Of a DNA stretch of 64,000 nt, positions 40,902 to 57,458 are shown one piece after another. The notes under the pieces were generated by a model. The model was not told the origin of the DNA. It saw only the letters and a program-made list of their open reading frames with translations, and made no database searches. The first letter of the stretch is position 1, and the number at the start of each line of letters is the position of its first letter. This DNA is from Gramella sp. Hel_I_59. GTDB taxonomy: Bacteria; Bacteroidota; Bacteroidia; Flavobacteriales; Flavobacteriaceae. The stretch is taken from positions 1,302,001-1,366,000 of the forward strand of contig NZ_VFME01000001.1 of assembly GCF_006714895.1 (NCBI RefSeq), read 5' to 3'. The translations under genes were made by a program, and so were the position numbers.

Positions 40902-40955
40902 ATGATTAGCATTGTTGAAAAATTCGTTGTGGCGGTGTTGGAAATTTTGTTCTAA
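40902..40955 (+). CDS. ilvL: ilv operon leader peptide (Ile/Val/Leu-rich)
   Basis: A 17-residue ORF, MISIVEKFVVAVLEILF, ends in TAA at 40953-40955. Nine of 17 residues are Ile, Val or Leu, with V-V-A-V-L in the centre. It is 250 nt upstream of ilvD. A hairpin overlaps its end (GTTGGAAATTTT 40937-40948 with AAAATTTCAAC 40956-40966, one bulge), and a terminator follows at 40992-41018. This is the classic plan of ribosome-mediated attenuation by all three branched-chain amino acids. It is too short to score as a protein gene on its own; the context makes the case. Confidence 0.7.
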   Translation: MISIVEKFVVAVLEILF

Positions 40956-40991
40956 AAAATTTCAACATTCCATTTTATCATAAGCTCACGA

Positions 40992-41018
40992 AGCCACCAT
41001 TTCTGGTGGCTTTTTTTA
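40992..41018 (+). terminator. attenuator terminator of the ilv operon
   Basis: AGCCACCA (40992-40999) and TGGTGGCT (41004-41011) with loop TTTC are followed by seven to eight T. It lies 37 nt after the leader-peptide stop. The following 190 nt to ilvD hold no further signal I can name. Confidence 0.85.
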
Positions 41019-46636: not shown

Positions 46637-47910
46637 TGGAAACTCTGCTGGAAAAAGATACGATTTACAAACCTAGTCTTGAAGCGGTTAAAGAGGCTTC
46701 GGAAAGGATCTCAAAGGTGGTGCTGAAAACTCCTTTAGCTGAATCTTTTACCTATAGCAAGCGCTTTGATGCAAAGGTAATGCTGAAGCGTGAGGATCTG
46801 CAACAAGTTAGATCTTACAAAATTCGAGGAGCCTATAATAAGATCTCCAGTTTACCACAGGAACAGCTTGAAAAAGGAGTGATCTGTGCCAGTGCGGGGA
46901 ATCATGCTCAGGGTGTTGCTTTTGCATGCAATAAGCTGAAAGTTAAAGGAGTAATCTATATGCCTGGCACCACGCCACAACAAAAGGTGGAACAAACTGA
47001 AATGTTCGGTGGTGAATGGGTGGAAGTAGTGCTGAAGGGTGATACCTATGATGATTCCTATAAGAGTGCTATGGCTCATATGGCTGAAAAAGGACTTATT
47101 TTCATTCATCCTTTCGATGATGAAAAAGTTATTGAAGGTCAGGCGACCATAGCCCTGGAGATCCTTGAGCAAGCAAATGAACCTATAGATTATGTTTTTG
47201 CTCCACTTGGCGGCGGCGGACTCCTGGCAGGAATTTCTTCCATGTTCAAGGAACTATCGCCCAATACTAAGATTATTGGCATCGAACCTCAGGGTGCACC
47301 ATCGATGAAGACCTCTCTGAAAGAAGGTAAAGTAGTCGAACTGGATCATATAGAACGATTTGTAGATGGCGCCTCTGTCCAGAAAGTTGGAACGCGAAAT
47401 TTTGCTATTTGTAAGGAAAATCTGGATGAAATGATCACAGTGCCGGAAGGAAAGATCTGCCAGACCATCCTTGATCTCTATAACCAGGATGCCATGGTAG
47501 TGGAACCTGCCGGAGCCATGGCGATATCAGCCCTGGATCTGTATGCTGAAAAGATCAAGGGTAAGAATGTTGTATGTATCGTTAGTGGCAGTAACAACGA
47601 TATCATCCGGATGGCCGAAATCAAGGAACGTGCATTACTATATTCCGGATTAAAGCATTATTTCGTAATCGTTTTCCCTCAAAGGGCAGGGGCCTTAAAG
47701 GAATTTGTAGCGAAAGTCCTGGGACCAAATGATGATATTACCCATTTTGAATATTCTAAAAAGCATAACAGGTCGAACGGGCCAGCGGTTGTGGGTATTG
47801 AGCTGAAGGATCCAGCTGACTTTGAACCCCTGGTAGAGAGAATGAAACAGAAGAATTTTTATGGGGAATATTTGAATAATAATCCAAATTTATTTCAATT
47901 TTTGATCTAG
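46636..47910 (+). CDS. ilvA: threonine deaminase (biosynthetic)
   Basis: This 424-residue enzyme makes 2-ketobutyrate for isoleucine. The PLP Lys lies in RSYKIRGAYNKIS, the phosphate loop is GGGGLLAG and the substrate loop is SAGNHAQGVAF. The C-terminus (about 335-424) has a single ACT-like regulatory domain (FVIVFPQRAGALKEFVAKVL) rather than the two found in E. coli. It is the last gene of the ilv operon. No terminator is seen before the arg leader 38 nt downstream. Confidence 0.94.
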   Translation: METLLEKDTIYKPSLEAVKEASERISKVVLKTPLAESFTYSKRFDAKVMLKREDLQQVRSYKIRGAYNKISSLPQEQLEKGVICASAGNHAQGVAFACNKLKVKGVIYMPGTTPQQKVEQTEMFGGEWVEVVLKGDTYDDSYKSAMAHMAEKGLIFIHPFDDEKVIEGQATIALEILEQANEPIDYVFAPLGGGGLLAGISSMFKELSPNTKIIGIEPQGAPSMKTSLKEGKVVELDHIERFVDGASVQKVGTRNFAICKENLDEMITVPEGKICQTILDLYNQDAMVVEPAGAMAISALDLYAEKIKGKNVVCIVSGSNNDIIRMAEIKERALLYSGLKHYFVIVFPQRAGALKEFVAKVLGPNDDITHFEYSKKHNRSNGPAVVGIELKDPADFEPLVERMKQKNFYGEYLNNNPNLFQFLI

Positions 47911-47936
47911 AACTGCCTGTACCTTAAAAATTTATA

Positions 47937-47944
47937 TACATTTG
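47937..47944 (+). promoter_or_regulatory. -7 box of the arg operon
   Basis: TACATTTG matches TAnnTTTG exactly and ends 4 nt before the first leader ATG at 47949. A CTG at 47913-47915 is at roughly -33 distance but is not the consensus TTG. Transcription would start at or next to the leader ATG. Confidence 0.55.
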
Positions 47945-47948
47945 TAAT

Positions 47949-48011
47949 ATGATTTCGATCAATAAGATAATATTAGTCCGTTTCAATTTCAGGCCCCGCC
48001 GCCGCTTCTAG
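47949..48011 (+). CDS. argL: arg operon leader peptide 1 (Arg-rich)
   Basis: A 20-residue ORF, ending TAG, with Arg at positions 11, 15, 17, 18 and 19; the C-terminus is RFNFRPRRRF, with three consecutive CGC codons at 47997-48005. The gene-poor 335-nt gap between ilvA and the arg operon contains it, a second Arg-rich ORF and a long hairpin that encloses the Arg codons (47964-48048). This fits a stalling sensor of charged tRNA-Arg. Evidence is composition and position; no homology was tested. Confidence 0.65.
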   Translation: MISINKIILVRFNFRPRRRF

Positions 48012-48048
48012 GCAGCACCCCGAAACGACTTTTTATTAATATTATCTT
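47964..48048 (+). promoter_or_regulatory. arg attenuator hairpin enclosing the leader 1 Arg codons
   Basis: The outer stem is AAGATAATATTA (47964-47975) with TAATATTATCTT (48037-48048), a perfect 12-bp match. The inner stem is AGTCCGTTTC (47975-47984) with GAAACGACT (48022-48030), one bulge, followed by TTTTTATT, which looks like a terminator tail. A ribosome stalled on the Arg codons (47991-48005) would prevent the inner stem. The exact alternative folds need computation. Confidence 0.55.
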
Positions 48049-48122
48049 ACATCCCAATTTTGAACTACATAAACGGCATAGAATACAAATTAAATATTAG
48101 ATCATTTTCTGATATTTCCCTT

Positions 48123-48152
48123 ATGCGCCGCCGTTTTCCCCGTCGCACGTAA
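48123..48152 (+). CDS. arg operon leader peptide 2 (Arg-rich)
   Basis: A nine-residue ORF, MRRRFPRRT, ends in TAA at 48150-48152; five of nine residues are Arg. It shares the RRRF string with leader 1 and is in the same frame: only the leader 1 TAG (48009-48011) interrupts an otherwise open 67-sense-codon stretch from 47949. A small stem, CGCAC/GTGCG (48044+100 to 48157, i.e. 48144-48148 with 48153-48157), overlaps its stop. No T-run terminator follows. An upstream in-frame TTG at 48060 could give a longer version. Confidence 0.5.
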   Translation: MRRRFPRRT

Positions 48153-48245
48153 GTGCGTCTATATATCTATGGAACTTAGGTGAGTCCGGTTCCGCTCTCG
48201 AAAACCCAGATCAAAATATAATTTCCAACATAAATCTTTTAGCAG

Positions 48246-48878
48246 ATGAAAATTCTCATTGCTAATAAATCTCACGCTTCCTATGCTGAGATCATTTGTA
48301 ATACTATCGAAGAATCGGCAAAGGTTCGGGGTACTGGTATTGCGCGCAGAACTCCTGAATATATCATCAATAAGATGGAGAGAGGAAACGCTGTGATCGC
48401 TCTCGAAGAGGAAAAGTTTGCCGGTTTCTGTTATATAGAAACCTGGAGCCACGACAAGTATGTGGCCAATTCCGGACTCATTGTCCATCCCGATTTTAGA
48501 AATCAGGGACTGGCGAAAGATATCAAAAATGTCATTTTTGATCATTCCCGTAAGAAATATCCGGAAGCTAAAATATTCGGGATCACCACAGGTTTAGCAG
48601 TCATGAAGATCAATTATGATCTGGGCTATCAACCGGTCACCTTTTCTGAACTTACCGATGATGAGACATTCTGGAAAGGATGCCAGACCTGTAAGAATTA
48701 CGATGTACTTACCCGAACAGATCATAAGATGTGTTTGTGTACAGGAATGATGTATGATCCCGAGAAGAAGAAAAATCCTAAGATGGTCGAGAAGCCTAAA
48801 AGTAAATTCAACGAAAAGGCATTTCAGCGATTAAAGCATATCAAGCAAACTCTTTTCTATAAGAAGGAAAAGGGTTGA
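48246..48878 (+). CDS. GNAT acyltransferase of the arg operon, candidate N-acylglutamate synthase
   Basis: This 210-residue protein has a GNAT fold (about 1-140) with the acyl-CoA loop HPDFRNQGLAKDI (81-93). A C-terminal extension carries four Cys (C146, C149, C163, C165; CQTC and CLC), possibly a metal site, and ends in a basic tail. It is the first gene after the arg leaders. No other enzyme for the first arginine step (argA or argJ) is in the operon, so it may make N-succinyl- or N-acetylglutamate. The function is inferred from context. Confidence 0.75.
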   Translation: MKILIANKSHASYAEIICNTIEESAKVRGTGIARRTPEYIINKMERGNAVIALEEEKFAGFCYIETWSHDKYVANSGLIVHPDFRNQGLAKDIKNVIFDHSRKKYPEAKIFGITTGLAVMKINYDLGYQPVTFSELTDDETFWKGCQTCKNYDVLTRTDHKMCLCTGMMYDPEKKKNPKMVEKPKSKFNEKAFQRLKHIKQTLFYKKEKG

Positions 48879-48986: not shown

Positions 48987-50174
48987 ATGAAAAAAGTAGT
49001 TATAGCATATAGTGGAGGACTGGATACCTCATATTGTGCAAAATATTTATCTGAAGAAGAAGGTTTTGAAGTTCATGCCGTAAGTGTGAATACCGGAGGA
49101 TTTTCAGAAGAAGAAATAAAAAATATTGATGAAAACGCTAAAAAAATAGGAGCAAGTAGCTTCAAAAATATCGATGCGGTCAACTCTTTTTACGAAAAAG
49201 TGGTGAAATATCTCATATTTGGAAATGTTCTAAAGAATGATACCTATCCTTTATCTGTAAGTGCAGAGAGGATCGTACAGGCCATGGAAATCGTGAATTA
49301 CGCGAAAAAAACAGGTGCTGGATATATCGCCCATGGCAGCACCGGTGCAGGAAACGACCAGGTTCGATTTGATATGATCTTCCAGATCATTGCTCCAGAT
49401 ATACAGATTATAACTCCTATAAGAGATAAACAACTAAGCAGACAGGAAGAGATTGAATACCTTAAAAGTAAAGGGGTCGAGATGAACTGGGATAAAGCAA
49501 AGTATTCGGTTAATAAAGGCCTTTGGGGAACCAGTGTTGGAGGAGCAGAAACTTTAACTTCAGAAAAAGCATTGCCGCAAGAGGCTTTCCCTTCTCAATT
49601 GGAGGCAAAGCAACCAAAGCAAATTAAGTTATCATTTACACATGGTGAGCTTACTGCTATTGATGGAAATGAAAACAAACCTGTGCAGAATATAGAAATC
49701 CTCGAAGGTATCGCCTCAAAATATGCAATTGGGAGAGACATTCATGTAGGTGATACGATCATAGGAATTAAAGGCAGAGTAGGTTTTGAAGCAGCTGCAG
49801 CACTTATCACTATTAAAGCGCATCATCTTCTAGAGAAGCATACCCTAAGCAAATGGCAATTACAACATAAAGATTATACCTCGAACTGGTATGGGATGCA
49901 TCTGCATGAAGGATTATACCTGGATCCTGTAATGAGAGATTTCGAAGCCCAGTTACAGAGTTCTCAATCCAAGGTCACCGGTGATGTTTTTATAAGCCTG
50001 AAACCTTACCATTTTACGCTGGATGGGATTAGCTCGCCGAATGACCTTATGAACAGCAGCTTTGGGAATTATGGTGAGGAGAACAAAGCCTGGACAGCCG
50101 AAGATGCCAAAGGATTCATTAAAATCCTTTCTAACTCAGGAAAGATATACCAACACGTAAATCAGGATTCATGA
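48987..50174 (+). CDS. argG: argininosuccinate synthase
   Basis: This 395-residue enzyme ligates citrulline and aspartate with ATP. The PP-loop VIAYSGGLDTSYCAKYL and the family segment AHGSTGAGNDQVRFD are present. It lies 108 nt after the GNAT gene, and argC starts inside its stop (ATGA-type overlap of 4 nt). Its early position, before the acyl-ornithine steps, is common in Bacteroidetes arg operons. Confidence 0.95.
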   Translation: MKKVVIAYSGGLDTSYCAKYLSEEEGFEVHAVSVNTGGFSEEEIKNIDENAKKIGASSFKNIDAVNSFYEKVVKYLIFGNVLKNDTYPLSVSAERIVQAMEIVNYAKKTGAGYIAHGSTGAGNDQVRFDMIFQIIAPDIQIITPIRDKQLSRQEEIEYLKSKGVEMNWDKAKYSVNKGLWGTSVGGAETLTSEKALPQEAFPSQLEAKQPKQIKLSFTHGELTAIDGNENKPVQNIEILEGIASKYAIGRDIHVGDTIIGIKGRVGFEAAAALITIKAHHLLEKHTLSKWQLQHKDYTSNWYGMHLHEGLYLDPVMRDFEAQLQSSQSKVTGDVFISLKPYHFTLDGISSPNDLMNSSFGNYGEENKAWTAEDAKGFIKILSNSGKIYQHVNQDS

Positions 50175-51136
50175 TAGAGGCAGGAATTATTGGAGGAGCA
50201 GGTTATACTGCGGGAGAATTGATCAGGATTTTATTATACCATCCTGAAGTAAACCTGAATTTTGTCTACAGTACTTCTCAACCCGGCAAGCCTGTTCACA
50301 GTATTCATCAGGATCTTATTGGAGAGACTGAACTTAAGTTCACCAACCTGATCAATAAGGAAGCAGATGTAGTTTTTCTTTGTCTTGGACATGGAAATTC
50401 CAGAAAGTTTCTTTCAGAGAATGAGTTTTCAGAAAGAACGAAAATCGTAGATCTAAGCACAGATTTCAGAATGAAATCGAATGATCACGCTTTTGTTTAT
50501 GGTCTTCCGGAAATAAATAAGGATAAGATCCAGTCTGCGAGTTTTATTGCGAACCCGGGATGTTTTGCTACTGCGATTAGCCTGGCAATTCTTCCATTGG
50601 CGCAGGCAGGTTTACTGCTGGAAGACGTCCATGTGAATGCCGTAACGGGTGCGACGGGTGCCGGTACTTCGCTTTCTAAAACAACACAATTTACCTGGAG
50701 AGACAATAATTTTTCAGCATATAAAAGTTTTGAGCATCAGCATTTGCAGGAAATCGGGCAGAGTCTAAAGCAGCTTCAGGAAAATCATAGTGCCGCGATC
50801 AATTTTATTCCGAATAGAGGAAATTTTTCAAGAGGTATTCATGCAACTGCATACACAAAATTTGAAGGTGAGCTGGAAGAGGCAAAATTGATGTATTCTG
50901 AATTCTATAAAAATGCTGCATTCACTTTTGTTACTGAAGAGGAATTACACTTAAAGCAAGTAGTGAATTCTAATAAGTGCTTGTTGAGGTTGCAAAAATT
51001 TGATGACAAATTATTGATTACAAGTGTGATCGATAATTTACTGAAAGGTGCTTCTGGACAGGCTGTTCAAAATATGAATCTAATGTTTGGCTTTGAAGAG
51101 AAAACAGGTTTAAATCTAAAAGCAAGTTATTTCTAA
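50171..51136 (+). CDS. argC: N-acyl-gamma-glutamyl-phosphate reductase
   Basis: This 321-residue protein has the NADP-binding start AGIIGGAGYTAGELIRILLYHPEV, the active-site Cys in IANPGCFATAISLAILPL and the VTGATGAG turn. It reduces the acyl-glutamyl phosphate made by ArgB to the semialdehyde. Whether the acyl group is acetyl or succinyl is not decided by ArgC; see the argF' entry. Confidence 0.94.
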   Translation: MIEAGIIGGAGYTAGELIRILLYHPEVNLNFVYSTSQPGKPVHSIHQDLIGETELKFTNLINKEADVVFLCLGHGNSRKFLSENEFSERTKIVDLSTDFRMKSNDHAFVYGLPEINKDKIQSASFIANPGCFATAISLAILPLAQAGLLLEDVHVNAVTGATGAGTSLSKTTQFTWRDNNFSAYKSFEHQHLQEIGQSLKQLQENHSAAINFIPNRGNFSRGIHATAYTKFEGELEEAKLMYSEFYKNAAFTFVTEEELHLKQVVNSNKCLLRLQKFDDKLLITSVIDNLLKGASGQAVQNMNLMFGFEEKTGLNLKASYF

Positions 51137-51194
51137 AATTTCAGAATTGGATGATTTTATCTATTACACAAGAATGATTGATAATTAAAGCGAT

Positions 51195-51989
51195 ATGAAA
51201 ATAGCAATTATAGGTGCAGGGAATCTGGGTGTTTCCATAGCGAAGGGCCTTATCTTCAGTAATGCGTTTACCACGCTTTACCTAAGTAAAAGAAAGATTG
51301 AAGATATCCAGGATTTTGAAGAATATGCAAAGGTTCATGTAACTTCAGATAACCTGAAGGCAGTAAGAAATTCTGACATTCTGATCTTTGCCGTGCAGCC
51401 CACGCAGTTTGAACGCATTCTTGAGGAGATCAAAGATGAACTTACAGATAAGCATGTTTTGATCTCAACAGTAACCGGTTTTAAGATACCCAGAATCGAA
51501 GCGATCATTGGTCAGGATCATTACATTATCAGGTCAATGCCCAATACGGCGATTGCTGTTGGGAAATCCATGACCTGTTTGTGTAGTAATGAAGCAGGTG
51601 AAAAAAGAATTAAGATCGCTGAAGCTATTTTTAACAGGCTTGGAACAAGTATTATCATTCCTGAGAACAAAATGCAGGCTGCGACGGTTATTTGCGCGAG
51701 TGGTGTCGCATTCTGGCTGCGTTTAATACGTGCGACCACTCAGGGAGCTGTACAACTCGGGTTTGATGCGAAAGATGCTCAGGAGCTTTCTATGCAGACC
51801 TGCTTGGGAGCCGCCAGTCTTTTGATAGAATCCGGAAAACACCCGGAGGAAGAGATCGATAAGGTAACCACTCCACGAGGCTGCACCATAGAAGGTCTTA
51901 ACGAGATGGAGCATAACGGCCTGAGTTCCTCGCTAATTAAAGGGATACAAGCCTCTTTTAAAAAGATTAATACAATATCAGACCAGTAA
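51195..51989 (+). CDS. proC: pyrroline-5-carboxylate reductase-like protein in the arg operon
   Basis: This 264-residue protein has the Rossmann start KIAIIGAGNLGVSIAKGL. The ProC signatures are IIRSMPNTAIAVGKSMTCL and, at the C-terminus, VTTPRGCTIEGLNEME (family: TSPGGTT..L). It would reduce pyrroline-5-carboxylate to proline. It is 2 nt before argD. Its presence in an arginine operon suggests a link between glutamate semialdehyde, ornithine and proline. Confidence 0.88.
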   Translation: MKIAIIGAGNLGVSIAKGLIFSNAFTTLYLSKRKIEDIQDFEEYAKVHVTSDNLKAVRNSDILIFAVQPTQFERILEEIKDELTDKHVLISTVTGFKIPRIEAIIGQDHYIIRSMPNTAIAVGKSMTCLCSNEAGEKRIKIAEAIFNRLGTSIIIPENKMQAATVICASGVAFWLRLIRATTQGAVQLGFDAKDAQELSMQTCLGAASLLIESGKHPEEEIDKVTTPRGCTIEGLNEMEHNGLSSSLIKGIQASFKKINTISDQ

Positions 51990-51991
51990 TT

Positions 51992-53146
51992 ATGGAGTTA
52001 TTTGATGTTTACCCATTATACGATATCACGCCGGTAAAAGGCGATGGTTGCTATGTTTATGATGAAAGCGGCAGGAAATACCTGGATCTTTATGGAGGTC
52101 ACGCGGTCATCTCAATTGGTCATGGGCATCCAAACTATGTACAGGCCATACATGCTCAGGTGGCACAACTTGGCTTTTATTCCAATTCCATCAAAAATCC
52201 CCTGCAAAATGAACTTGCTGGTAAACTGGAAGAAATTTCTGGAATCAGGGATTATACGCTGTTCTTATGTAGCTCTGGAGCTGAAGCGAATGAAAATGCA
52301 CTAAAAGTTGCTTCTTTCCATACGGGCAAGGACAGGATCATTTACTTCGAGAATGCTTTTCACGGTAGAACTTCTGGCGTAGTGGCGATTACCGATAATG
52401 AAACTATCAAAGCACCATTTAATAAAGGTCATAAGGCTACCCGATTGGCATTTAATAATATAGCTGCATTAGAAACTGAATTTAGAAAAGGGGATGTTGC
52501 GGCGGTTATTTTTGAAGTGATCCAGGGTGTTGGCGGACTGGATGAAGCAGACTCCGGTTTCTACAAGGCTGCGGCCGATATTTGTAAGGAGTACGATGTC
52601 ATGCTAATCGCAGATGAGGTACAGTCTGGTTTTGGTAGAACCGGTGATTTCTTTGCTTTTCAGAAGCATGGCATCAGGCCAGATATTATTAGTATGGCTA
52701 AAGGGATGGGTAATGGTTTCCCTGTTGGCGGAATTTTGATCGACCGTAATATTTCTCCTCGCTACGGAATGCTGGGTACGACTTTTGGCGGAAATCATCT
52801 CGCTTGTGCTGCGGCGATTTCAGTTTTGGATACTATCAAAGAAGAAAACCTGATGCATAATGCTGCTGAAGTTTCAGAATATATTCGGGAGGAAGCAGCT
52901 AAGATTTCAGAAATAAAAAAGATAAAAGGTCGTGGTTTGATGATAGGACTGGAGTTTGACTTTGAAATCGCTGCACTTCGGAAGGAGCTTCTATTTGACT
53001 TCCAGGTATTCACCGGGGCTTCATCTAATAAAAAACTACTGCGAATCCTTCCACCATTAAATATTCAGAAAAAACATTTTCAAGTCTTTTTTGAAGCTTT
53101 ACAGCAAGCATTAAAAAATCAAAAAATAAGCTCTGAAACTTCCTAA
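51992..53146 (+). CDS. argD: N-acylornithine aminotransferase
   Basis: This 384-residue class III aminotransferase has FLCSSGAEANENALKVA, the PLP region IADEVQSGFGRTG and the Lys motif ISMAKGMGNGFPVGGIL. It converts N-acylglutamate semialdehyde to N-acylornithine. It starts 2 nt after proC and is followed 64 nt later by argF'. Confidence 0.93.
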   Translation: MELFDVYPLYDITPVKGDGCYVYDESGRKYLDLYGGHAVISIGHGHPNYVQAIHAQVAQLGFYSNSIKNPLQNELAGKLEEISGIRDYTLFLCSSGAEANENALKVASFHTGKDRIIYFENAFHGRTSGVVAITDNETIKAPFNKGHKATRLAFNNIAALETEFRKGDVAAVIFEVIQGVGGLDEADSGFYKAAADICKEYDVMLIADEVQSGFGRTGDFFAFQKHGIRPDIISMAKGMGNGFPVGGILIDRNISPRYGMLGTTFGGNHLACAAAISVLDTIKEENLMHNAAEVSEYIREEAAKISEIKKIKGRGLMIGLEFDFEIAALRKELLFDFQVFTGASSNKKLLRILPPLNIQKKHFQVFFEALQQALKNQKISSETS

Positions 53147-53210
53147 GGAACACTTCAGAAAAAATAATTAGCAGAGTTAGTAAACTTCGGTTTTCAGAAA
53201 AAATATAAGA

Positions 53211-54158
53211 ATGAAAAACTATATAAACCTATCAGATATTGAGGATCTTAAAACTTTGATCCATGACGCAAGAGGTATGAAATCGAATCCTTCAGAAGAA
53301 AAACCTGGAAAAGGTAAGACTCTGGGGATGTTATTCTTCAATCCAAGTCTTCGTACCCGTCTAAGCACTGAAAAGGCGGCCAGATTATTGGGTATGGAGG
53401 TGATGGTCATGAATGCTGATAAAGATGGTTGGGCCTTGGAATTTGAGGATGGTGCGATTATGAATTCAGACAAGGCAGAACATATAAAAGAAGCAGCTGC
53501 TGTACTTTCACAATATTGCGATATCATCGCGGTACGGGCATTTCCAGGCCTTAAAGACAGGGAGAAGGATGAAACTGAAGTGGTGATGAATAGTTTTAAA
53601 AAGTACGCTTCAGTTCCCATAGTGAATCTGGAAAGCGCTACTGGCCACCCGTTGCAGGCTTTAACAGATGCGATTACCATTCAGGAATTAAGTGGGAAAT
53701 CTCGACCAAAGGTAGTATTGACATGGGCTCCGCACCCAAAAGCCTTACCACAATCTGTAGCGAATTCTTTTACTGAAGTGATGCAGAAAATGGAAGTTGA
53801 TCTTGTGATCGCTAATCCTGAAGGTTATGATCTGGATCCAAAAATTCGAAAGAATGTTCGTGTGGAGCATGACCAGAAAAAAGCCTTTAAGGACGCCGAC
53901 TTTGTGTATGTAAAAAACTGGAGTAGTTATGAAAAATACGGTCAGGTACTCGAGGTTGAAGAAAATTGGACCGTAGATCAGGCTAAATTAAAGAAAACCA
54001 ATAACGCAAAAGTGATGCATTGTCTTCCTGTTAGAAGAAACGTCGTGATCGCTGATGATATCCTGGATAGTGATAATTCTATTGTGATCCAGCAGGCGAA
54101 TAACAGAACCTATGCAGCACAAGCGGTGTTAAAAAAATTATTGGAATGCTCGAAATAG
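53211..54158 (+). CDS. argF': N-acylornithine transcarbamylase (N-succinylornithine type)
   Basis: This 315-residue transcarbamylase has the carbamoyl-phosphate loop SLRTRLSTEKAA, the segment ESATGHPLQALTD, WAPHPKALPQSVANSF and HCLPVRRN. It resembles Bacteroides fragilis N-succinylornithine transcarbamylase along its length as I remember it. At the position whose swap (Pro90 in B. fragilis, Glu in acetyl-type enzymes) is known to set acyl specificity, this protein has Ala89 (DKAEH). Its 3' end overlaps argB by 13 nt. Confidence 0.9.
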   Translation: MKNYINLSDIEDLKTLIHDARGMKSNPSEEKPGKGKTLGMLFFNPSLRTRLSTEKAARLLGMEVMVMNADKDGWALEFEDGAIMNSDKAEHIKEAAAVLSQYCDIIAVRAFPGLKDREKDETEVVMNSFKKYASVPIVNLESATGHPLQALTDAITIQELSGKSRPKVVLTWAPHPKALPQSVANSFTEVMQKMEVDLVIANPEGYDLDPKIRKNVRVEHDQKKAFKDADFVYVKNWSSYEKYGQVLEVEENWTVDQAKLKKTNNAKVMHCLPVRRNVVIADDILDSDNSIVIQQANNRTYAAQAVLKKLLECSK

Positions 54159-54946
54159 TTCATAATCCGGCGACAGATGTTCTTAATGTCATTAAAATAG
54201 GAGGTAAGCTCATCGAAAACCAAGAGCTGCTCGATTCTTTCCTCAAAGATTTTGTTCAGCTGAAAGGTCCTAAGATCCTTGTACACGGAGGTGGAAATAA
54301 AGCTACTGAAGTCGCAGGAAAATTAGGCTATAAGACTCAGATGATAGATGGCAGAAGAATTACAGATAAGAATTCTATGGAAGTGATCACGATGGTTTAC
54401 GGCGGACTTTTAAACAAAAGTATCGTTGCAAAATTGCAGGGAAATAAACAAAACGCGATCGGACTTTGCGGAGCAGATGCTAACGTACTAATTTCTAGAA
54501 AACGTGAAGTTAAAGAAATTGATTATGGCCTGGTAGGGGATGTGGTCAAGGTAAATACAGAATTTATCAAATCACTCTTGAAACAGGAGATCGTGCCCGT
54601 GTTTTCAGCGATTTCTTCTACGGAAGAAGGAGTTTTGCTAAATACTAACGGAGATTCGGTAGCTTCAGAAATAGCGATTGCTATGAGCAGTATCTATACA
54701 ACCCAGCTTTTTTACTGTTCAGAAAAGAAAGGAGTTCTAAAGAATATGGATGATGATGATTCAGTAATTGCTGAATTGAATTCAGATAATTATCAGCAAT
54801 TGAAAGCTTCGAAAGTGATCACAGATGGGATGTTGCCAAAACTTCATAATTGCTTTGAAGCGATCAATAGGGGAGTTTCAACCGTCTTTTTAGGAGATGC
54901 AGAACTTTTGAAAAAGGGTTCAAAACATACAAAAATTTTAAACTAA
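54146..54946 (+). CDS. argB: N-acylglutamate kinase
   Basis: This 266-residue amino-acid kinase has the glycine-rich VIKIGGKLI, LVHGGGNKATEVAGKLG, GLCGADANVL and the C-terminal SKVITDGMLPKLHNCFEAI. It phosphorylates N-acylglutamate. It starts within the end of argF', shares its last base with argE, and is expected to act on the product of the GNAT enzyme. Confidence 0.93.
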   Translation: MLEIVHNPATDVLNVIKIGGKLIENQELLDSFLKDFVQLKGPKILVHGGGNKATEVAGKLGYKTQMIDGRRITDKNSMEVITMVYGGLLNKSIVAKLQGNKQNAIGLCGADANVLISRKREVKEIDYGLVGDVVKVNTEFIKSLLKQEIVPVFSAISSTEEGVLLNTNGDSVASEIAIAMSSIYTTQLFYCSEKKGVLKNMDDDDSVIAELNSDNYQQLKASKVITDGMLPKLHNCFEAINRGVSTVFLGDAELLKKGSKHTKILN

Positions 54947-56016
54947 TGCAGATTAAAGAACTTCAGAAGGAAGCATTGCAACTATTGCAGAACCTCATCA
55001 GGACCCAATCTTTTTCAGGGGAAGAAGATAAAACTGCAGACTGGCTTGAACGATGGTTTACAGACCACAATATTCCGCATCAGCGAAGCCTCAATAATGT
55101 CTGGGCGACCAGTAAGCATTTCGATGATACAAAACCAAATCTGTTGCTGAATTCACATCATGACACGGTAAAACCAAATTCAGCTTACACCAGAGATCCT
55201 TTCAAGGCAAAAATTGAGAATGGTAAATTATATGGTCTTGGTAGCAATGATGCTGGTGGATGCCTTGTTTCTCTGTTGGCTACATTCACATACCTTTATT
55301 CTGAAGAGAATTTAGGTTATAATATCATTTTCGCCGGAACCGCGGAAGAGGAGATCAACGGAAAGAATGGGATTGCAGAACTATTACCAAAATTACCGAA
55401 GATAGATGTTGCGATTGTTGGCGAACCAACCCTGATGAATCTTGCAGTAGCTGAAAAAGGTCTTATCGTTTTCGATGCCGTAGTAAAAGGAACTCCTTCG
55501 CATGCGGCTCATCCAAATACTGTTAACTCGATCTATAAAACTGCGAGAGTTCTAAACTGGTTCGAAAACTTTAAATTAGAGAAGGTCTCAGAGAGTCTGG
55601 GAGAAGTGAAAGTGACGGTCACGCAGATCAAGGCTGGAAGTCAGCATAATGTAGTGCCCGCTAAGACGCATTTGGTGATAGATGTTAGGGTAAACGATAG
55701 ATATAGTAATGCAGAGATCGAGCAAATATTAAAAGAAAGAGCGCCAGTAGATGAGATCACTGCGAGAAGTTTAAGATTGAATTCGTCTTCGATCCCACTA
55801 GATCATGACCTTGTAAAAGCAGGAATAGAAATAGGGATGGAAACTTATGGCTCGCCAACACTTTCAGACCAGGCGATGTTGAGCTGTCCTTCACTAAAAT
55901 TAGGACCGGGAGATTCTACCAGATCACATTCGGCTGATGAATTTATTTATGTAAAGGAGATCGAAGAAGGTATTGAAAAGTATATAAAATTGCTTGAAAA
56001 AACACTTAGGAAATAA
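54946..56016 (+). CDS. argE: M20-family N-acylornithine/N-acylcitrulline deacylase
   Basis: This 356-residue metallopeptidase has zinc ligands in LLNSHHDTV, LGSNDAGG and GTAEEEINGKNG (catalytic Glu), and GEPTLMNLAVAEKG. It removes the acyl group; after ArgF' the substrate is N-acylcitrulline. It is coupled to argB. A REP-like hairpin lies in the 164-nt gap to argH. Confidence 0.9.
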   Translation: MQIKELQKEALQLLQNLIRTQSFSGEEDKTADWLERWFTDHNIPHQRSLNNVWATSKHFDDTKPNLLLNSHHDTVKPNSAYTRDPFKAKIENGKLYGLGSNDAGGCLVSLLATFTYLYSEENLGYNIIFAGTAEEEINGKNGIAELLPKLPKIDVAIVGEPTLMNLAVAEKGLIVFDAVVKGTPSHAAHPNTVNSIYKTARVLNWFENFKLEKVSESLGEVKVTVTQIKAGSQHNVVPAKTHLVIDVRVNDRYSNAEIEQILKERAPVDEITARSLRLNSSSIPLDHDLVKAGIEIGMETYGSPTLSDQAMLSCPSLKLGPGDSTRSHSADEFIYVKEIEEGIEKYIKLLEKTLRK

Positions 56017-56032
56017 TATCACTGAAATTGTT

Positions 56033-56067
56033 GCACTGAGCCTGTCGAAGTGCGACAAGCTCAGTGC
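56033..56067. repeat. REP-like palindromic element between argE and argH
   Basis: GCACTGAGCCTGTCG (56033-56047) and CGACAAGCTCAGTGC (56053-56067) pair at 14 of 15 positions around an AAGTG loop. The core (CACTGAGC..GTCGAAGTG) resembles a short repeat common in intergenic regions of Bacteroidetes and other bacteria, as I remember it. No T-run follows, so it is not a typical terminator. Confidence 0.7.
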
Positions 56068-56180
56068 AGCGATGGTAATAATGTTAGGCTGAAATTGTTC
56101 AACTTCTCATAAGATCTTGAATTCAGAAATTCAGCGAAGTCAAACCAGTTTAGAATAACGGATACTAAAAAATAAAAACT

Positions 56181-57458
56181 ATGAAACTCTGGGATAAAGG
56201 CATTTCAATAGATAAGCAGATCGAGAAATTTACCGTGGGAAACGATCGTGAACTCGATATGCATCTAGCTAAATATGATATACAGGCGTCCACAGCGCAC
56301 GCGAAGATGCTAGGGAAAGTTGGAATTCTGGAAGCACAGGAAGTAGATTTATTAGTTTCAGAATTGGAGCTATTGAACCAGCAACTCGAAAATGGTGAAT
56401 TTAAGATCGAAGAAGAATTTGAAGATGTGCATTCCAAAATCGAATACGAACTCACTTCCAAACTGGGAGATACTGGAAAAAAGATTCATACGGCCCGATC
56501 AAGGAACGACCAGGTTCTTGTAGCTCAACAATTGTATTTTAAAGAAAACCTGCTAGAGATTTCTGGAAAGACCAGGAATTTGATCGATGTACTTTTAAAC
56601 CTTGCAGAGGAACATAAGGAAAAATTGCTTCCCGGGTACACACATCTACAGGTGGCGATGCCTTCATCTTTTGGTTTATGGTTTTCAGCTTACGCAGAAT
56701 TATTAATTGATGATCTATACTTACTCGATGCCGGGCTAAAGATCGTGGATCAAAATCCGCTGGGTTCTGCTGCAGGATATGGCTCTTCATTTCCTATAGA
56801 CAGGGAATTTACCACCAAAGAATTAGGCTTTGCAACCCAGAAGTATAATGTTGTAGCTGCCCAGATGAGTAGGGGGAAATGTGAGCGCACGGTTACTTCC
56901 AATATCTCATCTCTTGCAAACACACTTTCCAGGTTCGCTATGGATATTTGCTTGTATATGAGTCAGAACTTTGATTTTATCACTTTTCCGGATGAGTTAA
57001 CAACCGGTTCCAGTATCATGCCGCACAAGAAAAATCCTGATGTTTTCGAACTCGTCAGGGGAAAATGCAATAAGCTGCAGGCAATCGCAAATGAAATGAT
57101 CCTGATCACTAATAATCTTCCAAGTGGATATCACAGGGATTTCCAGCTTATCAAAGAGAATAGTATTTATGCGGTAGAAACTATCAAAGAAATCCTGGAT
57201 GTTTTCACCTATTCCATCAGCAAGATCATTGTGAAAGATATCGATATCACGGACGAGAAATATAAATATCTGTTTACCGTAGACAGTATCAACGAACTTG
57301 TGATAGGAGGGAAGTCATTTCGGGATGCGTACAAGATCATTGGAGAACAGGTCCAAAATGACACTTATAAAGCTACCGAAGGCATGCAGCATACTCATTC
57401 CGGTAGTAAGGATAATCTTTCACTAAATATGATCAGGACAAAATTGCAGCAGTTATAA
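56181..57458 (+). CDS. argH: argininosuccinate lyase
   Basis: This is a 425-residue fumarase/aspartase-superfamily enzyme with the signature GSSIMPHKKNPDVFELVRGK and the catalytic region HTARSRNDQV. It releases arginine and fumarate. It is the last gene of the arg operon, separated from argE by 164 nt that contain the REP-like repeat, and convergent with leuB. Confidence 0.95.
   Translation: MKLWDKGISIDKQIEKFTVGNDRELDMHLAKYDIQASTAHAKMLGKVGILEAQEVDLLVSELELLNQQLENGEFKIEEEFEDVHSKIEYELTSKLGDTGKKIHTARSRNDQVLVAQQLYFKENLLEISGKTRNLIDVLLNLAEEHKEKLLPGYTHLQVAMPSSFGLWFSAYAELLIDDLYLLDAGLKIVDQNPLGSAAGYGSSFPIDREFTTKELGFATQKYNVVAAQMSRGKCERTVTSNISSLANTLSRFAMDICLYMSQNFDFITFPDELTTGSSIMPHKKNPDVFELVRGKCNKLQAIANEMILITNNLPSGYHRDFQLIKENSIYAVETIKEILDVFTYSISKIIVKDIDITDEKYKYLFTVDSINELVIGGKSFRDAYKIIGEQVQNDTYKATEGMQHTHSGSKDNLSLNMIRTKLQQL

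Follow-up and report, generated by a model that had tools for sequence, protein, structure and literature searches.

The arginine operon of Gramella sp. Hel_I_59 is probably controlled by two tandem leader peptides with clustered Arg codons, which would sense charged tRNA-Arg in a ribosome-mediated manner and take the place of ArgR. The comparison of related loci supports that both leader ORFs are translated, that their Arg codons are conserved and their stems paired, that the leaders are tied to the arg operon, and that ArgR is absent. At this level of sequence comparison, Arg-codon sensing is well supported; we infer the promoter, the stalling of the ribosome, the direction in which the operon responds, and the step that yields the output.

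The preliminary description of the region had proposed tRNA-Arg-sensing attenuation of an operon that is normally under ArgR in better-known bacteria. The proposal gained from conserved Arg codons, compensated stems, and the lack of ArgR in 149 of 149 family genomes, but its layout was incomplete: it corresponded to the upstream half and missed the widely conserved second leader (48060–48152) and the hairpins at 48138–48195.

Structure of the Arginine Operon Locus

The genome is a single contig of 3.44 Mb, and the window, the whole stretch of 64,000 nucleotides that was analysed, is part of it. The nearest named relatives belong to Christiangramia/Gramella, with 93–94% identity in the query protein. 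A gap of 335 nt between the ilvA stop (47910) and the start of the arg operon (48246) holds the leaders, and the gene matches bore out the earlier placement between ilvA and the arg genes. The operon was annotated as follows:

48246..48878, + strand: GNAT-like acetyltransferase, operon gene 1 (Pfam PF00583 above the cut-off)
48987..57458, + strand: argG, argC, proC, argD-like, N-acetylornithine carbamoyltransferase family, argB, argE/dapE-like, and argH

IlvA, ArgG, ArgC, ProC, N-acetylornithine carbamoyltransferase, ArgB, and ArgH scored above their NCBIfam cut-offs, and the ArgD-like and ArgE/DapE-like genes scored below. The first gene is a weak GNAT match (26.2 bits, cut-off 20.7), for which NCBIfam gave no model.

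The ilv operon was found to have a leader ORF of its own (MISIVEKFVVAVLEILF, read by eye) close downstream of a TAGTTTTA box, and a terminator-like hairpin with a T-run lies upstream of ilvD (leader region at 40903–40956 and 40990–41013 of the window). This leader looks like an ordinary Ile/Val/Leu attenuator.

The First Leader, LP1

The features of the first leader are as follows:

47937..47944, + strand: TACATTTG, a predicted −7 promoter box that fits the TAnnTTTG pattern of flavobacterial sigma-A
47949..48011, + strand: LP1, 20-codon leader ORF MISINKIILVRFNFRPRRRF, open in 15/15 Christiangramia-group loci
47963..47975, + strand: 5′ arm of the LP1 outer hairpin, inside the ORF and ahead of the Arg codons
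48037..48049, + strand: 3′ arm of the LP1 outer hairpin
47975..47984, + strand: 5′ arm of the inner LP1 stem AGTCCGTTTC, a stem that is clear in the window and its nearest relative alone
48022..48030, + strand: 3′ arm of the inner LP1 stem GAAACGACT, then TTTTATT

The 20-codon ORF with five Arg codons that had been described is present at 47949–48011. Its Arg codons start at 47979, 47991, 47997, 48000, and 48003, and the three consecutive ones are CGC.

The TACATTT of the −7 box is invariant, and its distance to the start codon is constant in 15/15 loci. The passages of PMC9723704 on F. psychrophilum place the −7 box at −12 to −5. With this spacing, the predicted transcription start is the A of the LP1 ATG, so LP1 would be leaderless; the same passages give leaderless mRNAs as merely 5.5% in that species. 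Under strict scan settings, 11/54 loci had a TAnnTTTG box a short way ahead of a small ORF with two or more Arg codons, and in at least one of them (L014) this is another ORF.

The segment folded better than all 200 dinucleotide shuffles, both as 47949–48062 (z −4.1) and as 47900–48120 (z −4.2), which agrees with the structure first described. The outer stem, reported there as a perfect 12-bp stem, is indeed perfect but spans 13 nt (47963–47975 with 48037–48049). The ORF and the outer hairpin were conserved in 15/15 Christiangramia-group loci. Over these loci, the 12 pairs of the stem were paired in 98.9% of cells, both unpaired cells lying in L034, and double changes occupied 6 cells in two compensated base pairs. 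The covariation score exceeded all 500 shuffles and all slid versions of the stem; the number of doubly changed pairs did not exceed the shuffles (159/500). The inner stem followed by T's exists as described, but it contains one bulged C and is absent from the consensus fold of the genus group.

A T-run follows the outer stem in 12/15 loci and is broken in the window genome and two close relatives. With these T's and a hairpin that starts 53 nt past the ilvA stop, the structure could be read as merely the terminator of the upstream ilv operon. We consider this quite improbable, since the ORF that contains the 5′ arm is open, conserves its Arg codons, and sits right at the predicted promoter, and since the Arg-rich LP1 of other loci has an A-rich/U-rich stem of a different kind (by eye).

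The Second Leader, LP2

The second leader lies between LP1 and the operon and comprises the following features:

48060..48152, + strand: LP2, 30-codon leader ORF LNYINGIEYKLNIRSFSDISLMRRRFPRRT with a TTG start, open with TTG in 15/15 loci
48092..48117, + strand: P0, candidate hairpin within LP2 ahead of the Arg codons (arms 48092–48101 and 48108–48117)
48144..48157, + strand: P1, stop hairpin CGCAC-GUAA-GUGCG, from comparison, with CG-to-AU compensation
48171..48193, + strand: P2, bulged hairpin GGAACU-UA-GG-UGAGU-CC-GGUUCC, 5/6 lower-stem pairs doubly changed
48138..48195, + strand: covariance-model match, 75.7 bits with model R1 and 77.8 bits with model R2 (both models include this locus)

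The Arg codons of LP2 are CGC CGC CGT (48126–48134) and CGT CGC (48141–48146). An internal ATG at 48123 would give the short form MRRRFPRRT; the ATG is gone in L033, so this short form is not a fully conserved start. The support for P0 was modest (mean z −1.01 over 54 loci, z below −1 in 27). When the LP2 stretch of the window (48060–48200) was folded alone, z was −2.2 and 6/200 shuffles were as good.

The last Arg codon lies in the 5′ arm of P1, and the UAA stop sits in the GUAA loop of this hairpin. The 54-locus alignments and counts were made after near-duplicates and loci without the motif had been removed. Among these 54 loci, the stop of the ORF lies within the P1 loop in 44, and no stop was placed there in the other 10; P1 was placed by script, and its placement is probably wrong in L005, L045, and L073, which are among the 10. 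The peptide ends in Arg-Pro-stop in most of the 54 loci and in Arg-Thr in Christiangramia, and it is variable outside the Arg run.

Nascent-peptide arrest is known from TnaC, SpeFL, and fungal AAP. The Arg-Pro-stop ending could accordingly be taken to mean that the ...RRRP peptide at the stop codon senses arginine within the ribosome. Such an arrest is very improbable here: the terminal Pro is replaced by Thr in Christiangramia, where P1 changed by compensation, the 10 loci above have no stop placed inside the P1 loop, and the rest of the peptide varies, without the conserved peptide that characterises such systems.

A spacer separates P1 from P2. The core of P2 (A-GG-UGNGU-CC) is near-invariant while its stem covaries. 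We asked whether P2 could be part of a general amino-acid attenuator; among the 8 exact pattern matches in its own genome, only the arg copy has the stem, and this candidate was not supported (the reversed-pattern control gave 15 matches in the same genome). Plasmid and viral collections contained no relative. A kissing contact between the P2 loop and the Arg codons may occur, since such duplexes form in every locus, but it is unsupported by co-change, as the loop stays AGGTGAG where the P1 of Christiangramia changes.

The near-invariant core and the uniqueness of P2 among the genome pattern matches suggest that P2 is recognised by a specific factor. Another reading goes further and takes P2 to bind a hypothetical partner, namely an arginine-specific protein, arginine, or tRNA, the leader peptide only gating P2. 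The nearly invariant loop and bulge over a covarying stem and the lack of a second stem-bearing copy among the pattern matches are in its favour; against it, P2 has no Rfam relative, and we regard this reading as unlikely.

Comparative Evidence for Translation, Structure, and Codon Use

The alignment of the 15 loci showed that gaps respect the reading frames of both leaders. All gaps inside LP1 (6 rows at one placement) and inside LP2 (2 rows at one placement) were 3 nt long. Between the LP1 stop and LP2, there were 36 row-gaps at 6 placements, and after P2 there were 23 at 5 placements; none of these was a multiple of 3. The variable codons were mostly non-synonymous (13/15 in LP1 and 19/25 in LP2), with no synonymous excess, so the case for translation rests on the open frames, the gap sizes, and the Arg codons. 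The comparison thus supports the translation of both LP1 and LP2, and constraint seems limited to the stems, the reading frame, and the run of Arg codons.

For model R1, 22 rows selected as one structural type were used, and the 78 matches of R1 served to build R2. The LP2 element was found in 78/86 sources, 22 of which had built the model, and 69 of the 78 matches were distinct. In the alignment of the 78 matches, which was fitted to the model and hence leans towards the structure, 97.1% of cells were paired and 7/13 pairs were doubly changed in 57 cells. Its covariation was 0.313, compared with at most 0.101 for slid structures, and 0/500 shuffles reached it. The MAFFT alignment of the 22 sequences gave 95.4% paired cells, five doubly changed pairs in 13 cells, and a covariation of 0.255 (0/500 shuffles); the number of further pair types in it was not beyond the shuffles (142/500).

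Over the final 13 codons of LP2 in 51 loci, Arg was encoded by CGC (123), CGU (89), and others (14), i.e., CGC/CGU made up 212/226. In 22 genes of the window, CGC and CGU accounted for 56/275 Arg codons, and AGA and AGG for 161/275. This bias points to a CGN-reading isoacceptor as the one read by the sensor, unless pairing within P1 explains it. Two marks of a ribosome-mediated attenuator were found here: Arg codons clustered in short ORFs, and hairpins that a stalled ribosome could mask.

ArgR and the Distribution of the Leaders

Arginine operons are textbook targets of ArgR. A search with PF01316 found ArgR in 0/149 Flavobacteriaceae genomes, including the genome of the window, and in 9/14 control genomes. 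In a phylum sample of 345 genomes, ArgR was present in 122, the GNAT gene in 142, and both in 4. The arg operon type marked by the GNAT gene and ArgR are thus nearly mutually exclusive across this sample. Two of the four overlaps are clear ArgR genes (G372 and G380, family f11). In both, ArgR shares the strand of the GNAT gene and lies approximately 320–360 nt ahead of it (for G380, L169 at C1:650000–651310), as if repressor and leader were alternatives in this family. The ArgR match of G199, which carries the LP2 element, is doubtful at 26.9 bits in a 312-aa frame (27.3 bits with neighbours; cut-off 27), and so is that of G176, with five matches of 33.4 bits in 127-aa frames.

With R1 (E ≤ 0.1), exactly one copy of the element was found in 93/149 Flavobacteriaceae genomes; the GNAT gene was found in 98/149. 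The two occurred together in 91 genomes, with the element 40–243 nt upstream of the gene match. Seven genomes had the GNAT gene alone, and two (G084 and G027) had the element alone. In G084, the element (L118 1299–1354) is followed by an ORF without a Pfam match, argG, and an argC-type semialdehyde-dehydrogenase gene, which indicates that the element tracks the arg operon rather than the GNAT gene. The ORF that replaces the first operon gene there is unrelated to it by the search used. The R1 match of G027 (E 0.04) was taken as chance. Six of the seven element-less genomes were read: L121 has an LP1-type leader, L120 has LP1 with the decayed remains of LP2, the Arg-containing leaders of L123 and L125 have diverged, the leader of L122 is of another sort, and none was seen in L124.

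All 15 matches of R2 in the phylum sample were in Flavobacteriaceae. The element was lacking in 22 of the 37 Flavobacteriaceae genomes of the sample that have the GNAT gene, and 21 of these 22 are from one genus (g128). A different leader precedes the arg operon in the four of five g128 members that were read (L122 and L188–L190; L191 being the fifth). It ends in ...SPEVRML or SPEVRMLS(I/L), and CTCCCGAAGTACGGATGCTAT is conserved.

The tandem of LP1 and LP2 was found in Christiangramia and Salegentibacter (L042, L043). A tandem with a different A-rich/U-rich LP1 stem, judged by eye, was found in loci such as L018–L020, L022, L023, L026–L028, L030, and L053. The other loci compared have a single leader.

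Outside Flavobacteriaceae, 8/35 loci read were judged to have an Arg-clustered leader near the gene, a count made with no chance control; GC-rich loci outside the family list Arg-rich ORFs of accidental appearance. Seven came from the ORF list (L156, L158, L161, L162, L172, L174, and L175) and L157 was found by eye. The three loci of family f2 (L153–L155) showed no Arg-clustered leader near the GNAT gene. A Saprospiraceae MAG (L076 2746–2820) has a leader MLSNTTTYNFTSLTRRNRRVRRRP that ends in RRRP, with a P1-like stop hairpin CGCCC-GTA-GGGCG and a second hairpin unlike P2. In the Bacteroidales loci L077–L080 and L082, the GNAT gene is preceded by a conserved type of leader ORF MNRDFFIFSFDGETFRVRR together with a hairpin GGAGGGATGTCCCTCC. 

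Proposed Mechanism

We propose that one transcript, beginning at or beside the LP1 ATG, carries both leaders. When charged tRNA-Arg of the CGN-reading isoacceptor runs short, the ribosome would stall on the CGC/CGU codons. At the first Arg codon of LP1 (47979), the stalled ribosome would hide the 5′ arm of the terminator-like hairpin, which is long and AU-rich, and transcription would continue. A stall on the last Arg codons of LP2 would cover P1 and leave it unformed. When arginine is plentiful, the ribosome would finish and depart, P1 and the LP1 hairpin would form, and expression would be shut off. P2 may serve as a fixed recognition hairpin that links this state to the output, be it termination by Rho, decay of the RNA, or the action of a factor bound there.

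Scanned for perfect stems, none of 54 loci had a terminator-like site after P2, and for this reason the output of LP2, whether through Rho, through decay of the RNA, or through a factor that binds P2, is one that we infer. A U-rich tail was found after P1 in 26/54 loci and after P2 in 2/54. The cross-species duplex permutation (48 loci, 13 region pairs, uncorrected) showed no clear conserved antiterminator pairing for LP2. Only the arms of P2 itself stood out (0/2000 permutations), and weak signals came from LP2 coding/spacer, Arg region/P1 3′ arm, and LP2 coding/Arg region (p 0.022, 0.037, and 0.044, respectively).

These results bear on classical transcription attenuation at both leaders, with mutually exclusive antiterminator and intrinsic terminator in the style of his and trp. 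The T-run after the LP1 outer hairpin in 12/15 loci and the leader ORF and terminator of the adjoining ilv operon speak for it; the empty scan after P2, the lack of a clear competing LP2 pairing, and the broken LP1 T-run of the window genome speak against it. We hold it to be somewhat unlikely, and a classical terminator attenuator is evident at neither leader of the window genome.

An output through Rho or RNase, as in Salmonella speF/orf34, where the position of the ribosome on the Arg codons decides between termination and degradation, is a possibility that we take seriously, though we would not assume it. The precedent with two consecutive Arg codons described in the passages of PMC6386406 fits, as does the lack of a terminator-like site after LP2, but the mRNA that low arginine stabilises in that system belongs to a polyamine gene and not to an arg operon. 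The three output readings (terminator, Rho/RNase, and P2 factor) are all compatible with the codon-sensing step of the tandem-leader model.

We speculate, with some doubt, that ArgR was replaced in Flavobacteriaceae by a new class of RNA regulator, consisting of a leader with its stop codon in a hairpin loop and an arginine-specific P2, without an intrinsic terminator. A second, leaderless attenuator would then have been stacked on it in some genera for sharper control.

Comparison with Known Systems

Control by ArgR and its operators concerns the same regulated genes; the difference is that ArgR was found in 0/149 genomes of the family. Much of Flavobacteriaceae appears to sense arginine via ribosome stalling on CGN codons instead of ArgR.

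In the passages seen of PMC6386406, ribosome pausing at consecutive Arg codons of the Salmonella speF leader orf34 controls the downstream gene via Rho and RNase G. That leader differs in that it controls ornithine decarboxylase rather than arginine synthesis and belongs to a different lineage.

Leader-peptide attenuators have been reported in flavobacteria (PMC9723704), and Bacteroid-trp RF01692 is listed in PMC2864571; as far as the passages of these two papers go, both resemble the present leaders as leader-based control of amino-acid operons in Bacteroidota. The passages of PMC9723704, as distinct from the 64 structured 5′ regions in its Table S7, name no arginine leader. PMC2864571 also lists, with no Rfam accession in the part seen, the GUCCY-hairpin, a motif of Bacteroidetes and Proteobacteria; its name recalls the GUCC of P2, a comparison by name only, consensus aside. 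Rfam, including T-box, gave no match at the gathering threshold in the window or 10 loci, and none up to E 5 within 47880–48260. The literature searched, mostly outside subscription journals and supplementary files, contained no paper on a Bacteroidota arginine leader.

Ribosome-mediated attenuators are known for the his, trp, leu, ilv, thr, and phe operons. The present system is like them in having, upstream of a biosynthetic operon, overlapping hairpins and a short leader ORF in which codons for the amino acid that the operon makes are abundant. It differs from them in serving an arginine operon, with two leaders in series, a stop codon in a hairpin loop, a near-invariant P2 hairpin, and no terminator-like site after LP2. 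Attenuation of this kind is known; what appears to be new, within the searches made, is its arginine version, the arrangement of two leaders in tandem, and P1–P2. With the element, attenuation that has no obvious terminator can be studied in a compact form open to genetic tests, and LP1–LP2 offers a natural design of tandem attenuators.
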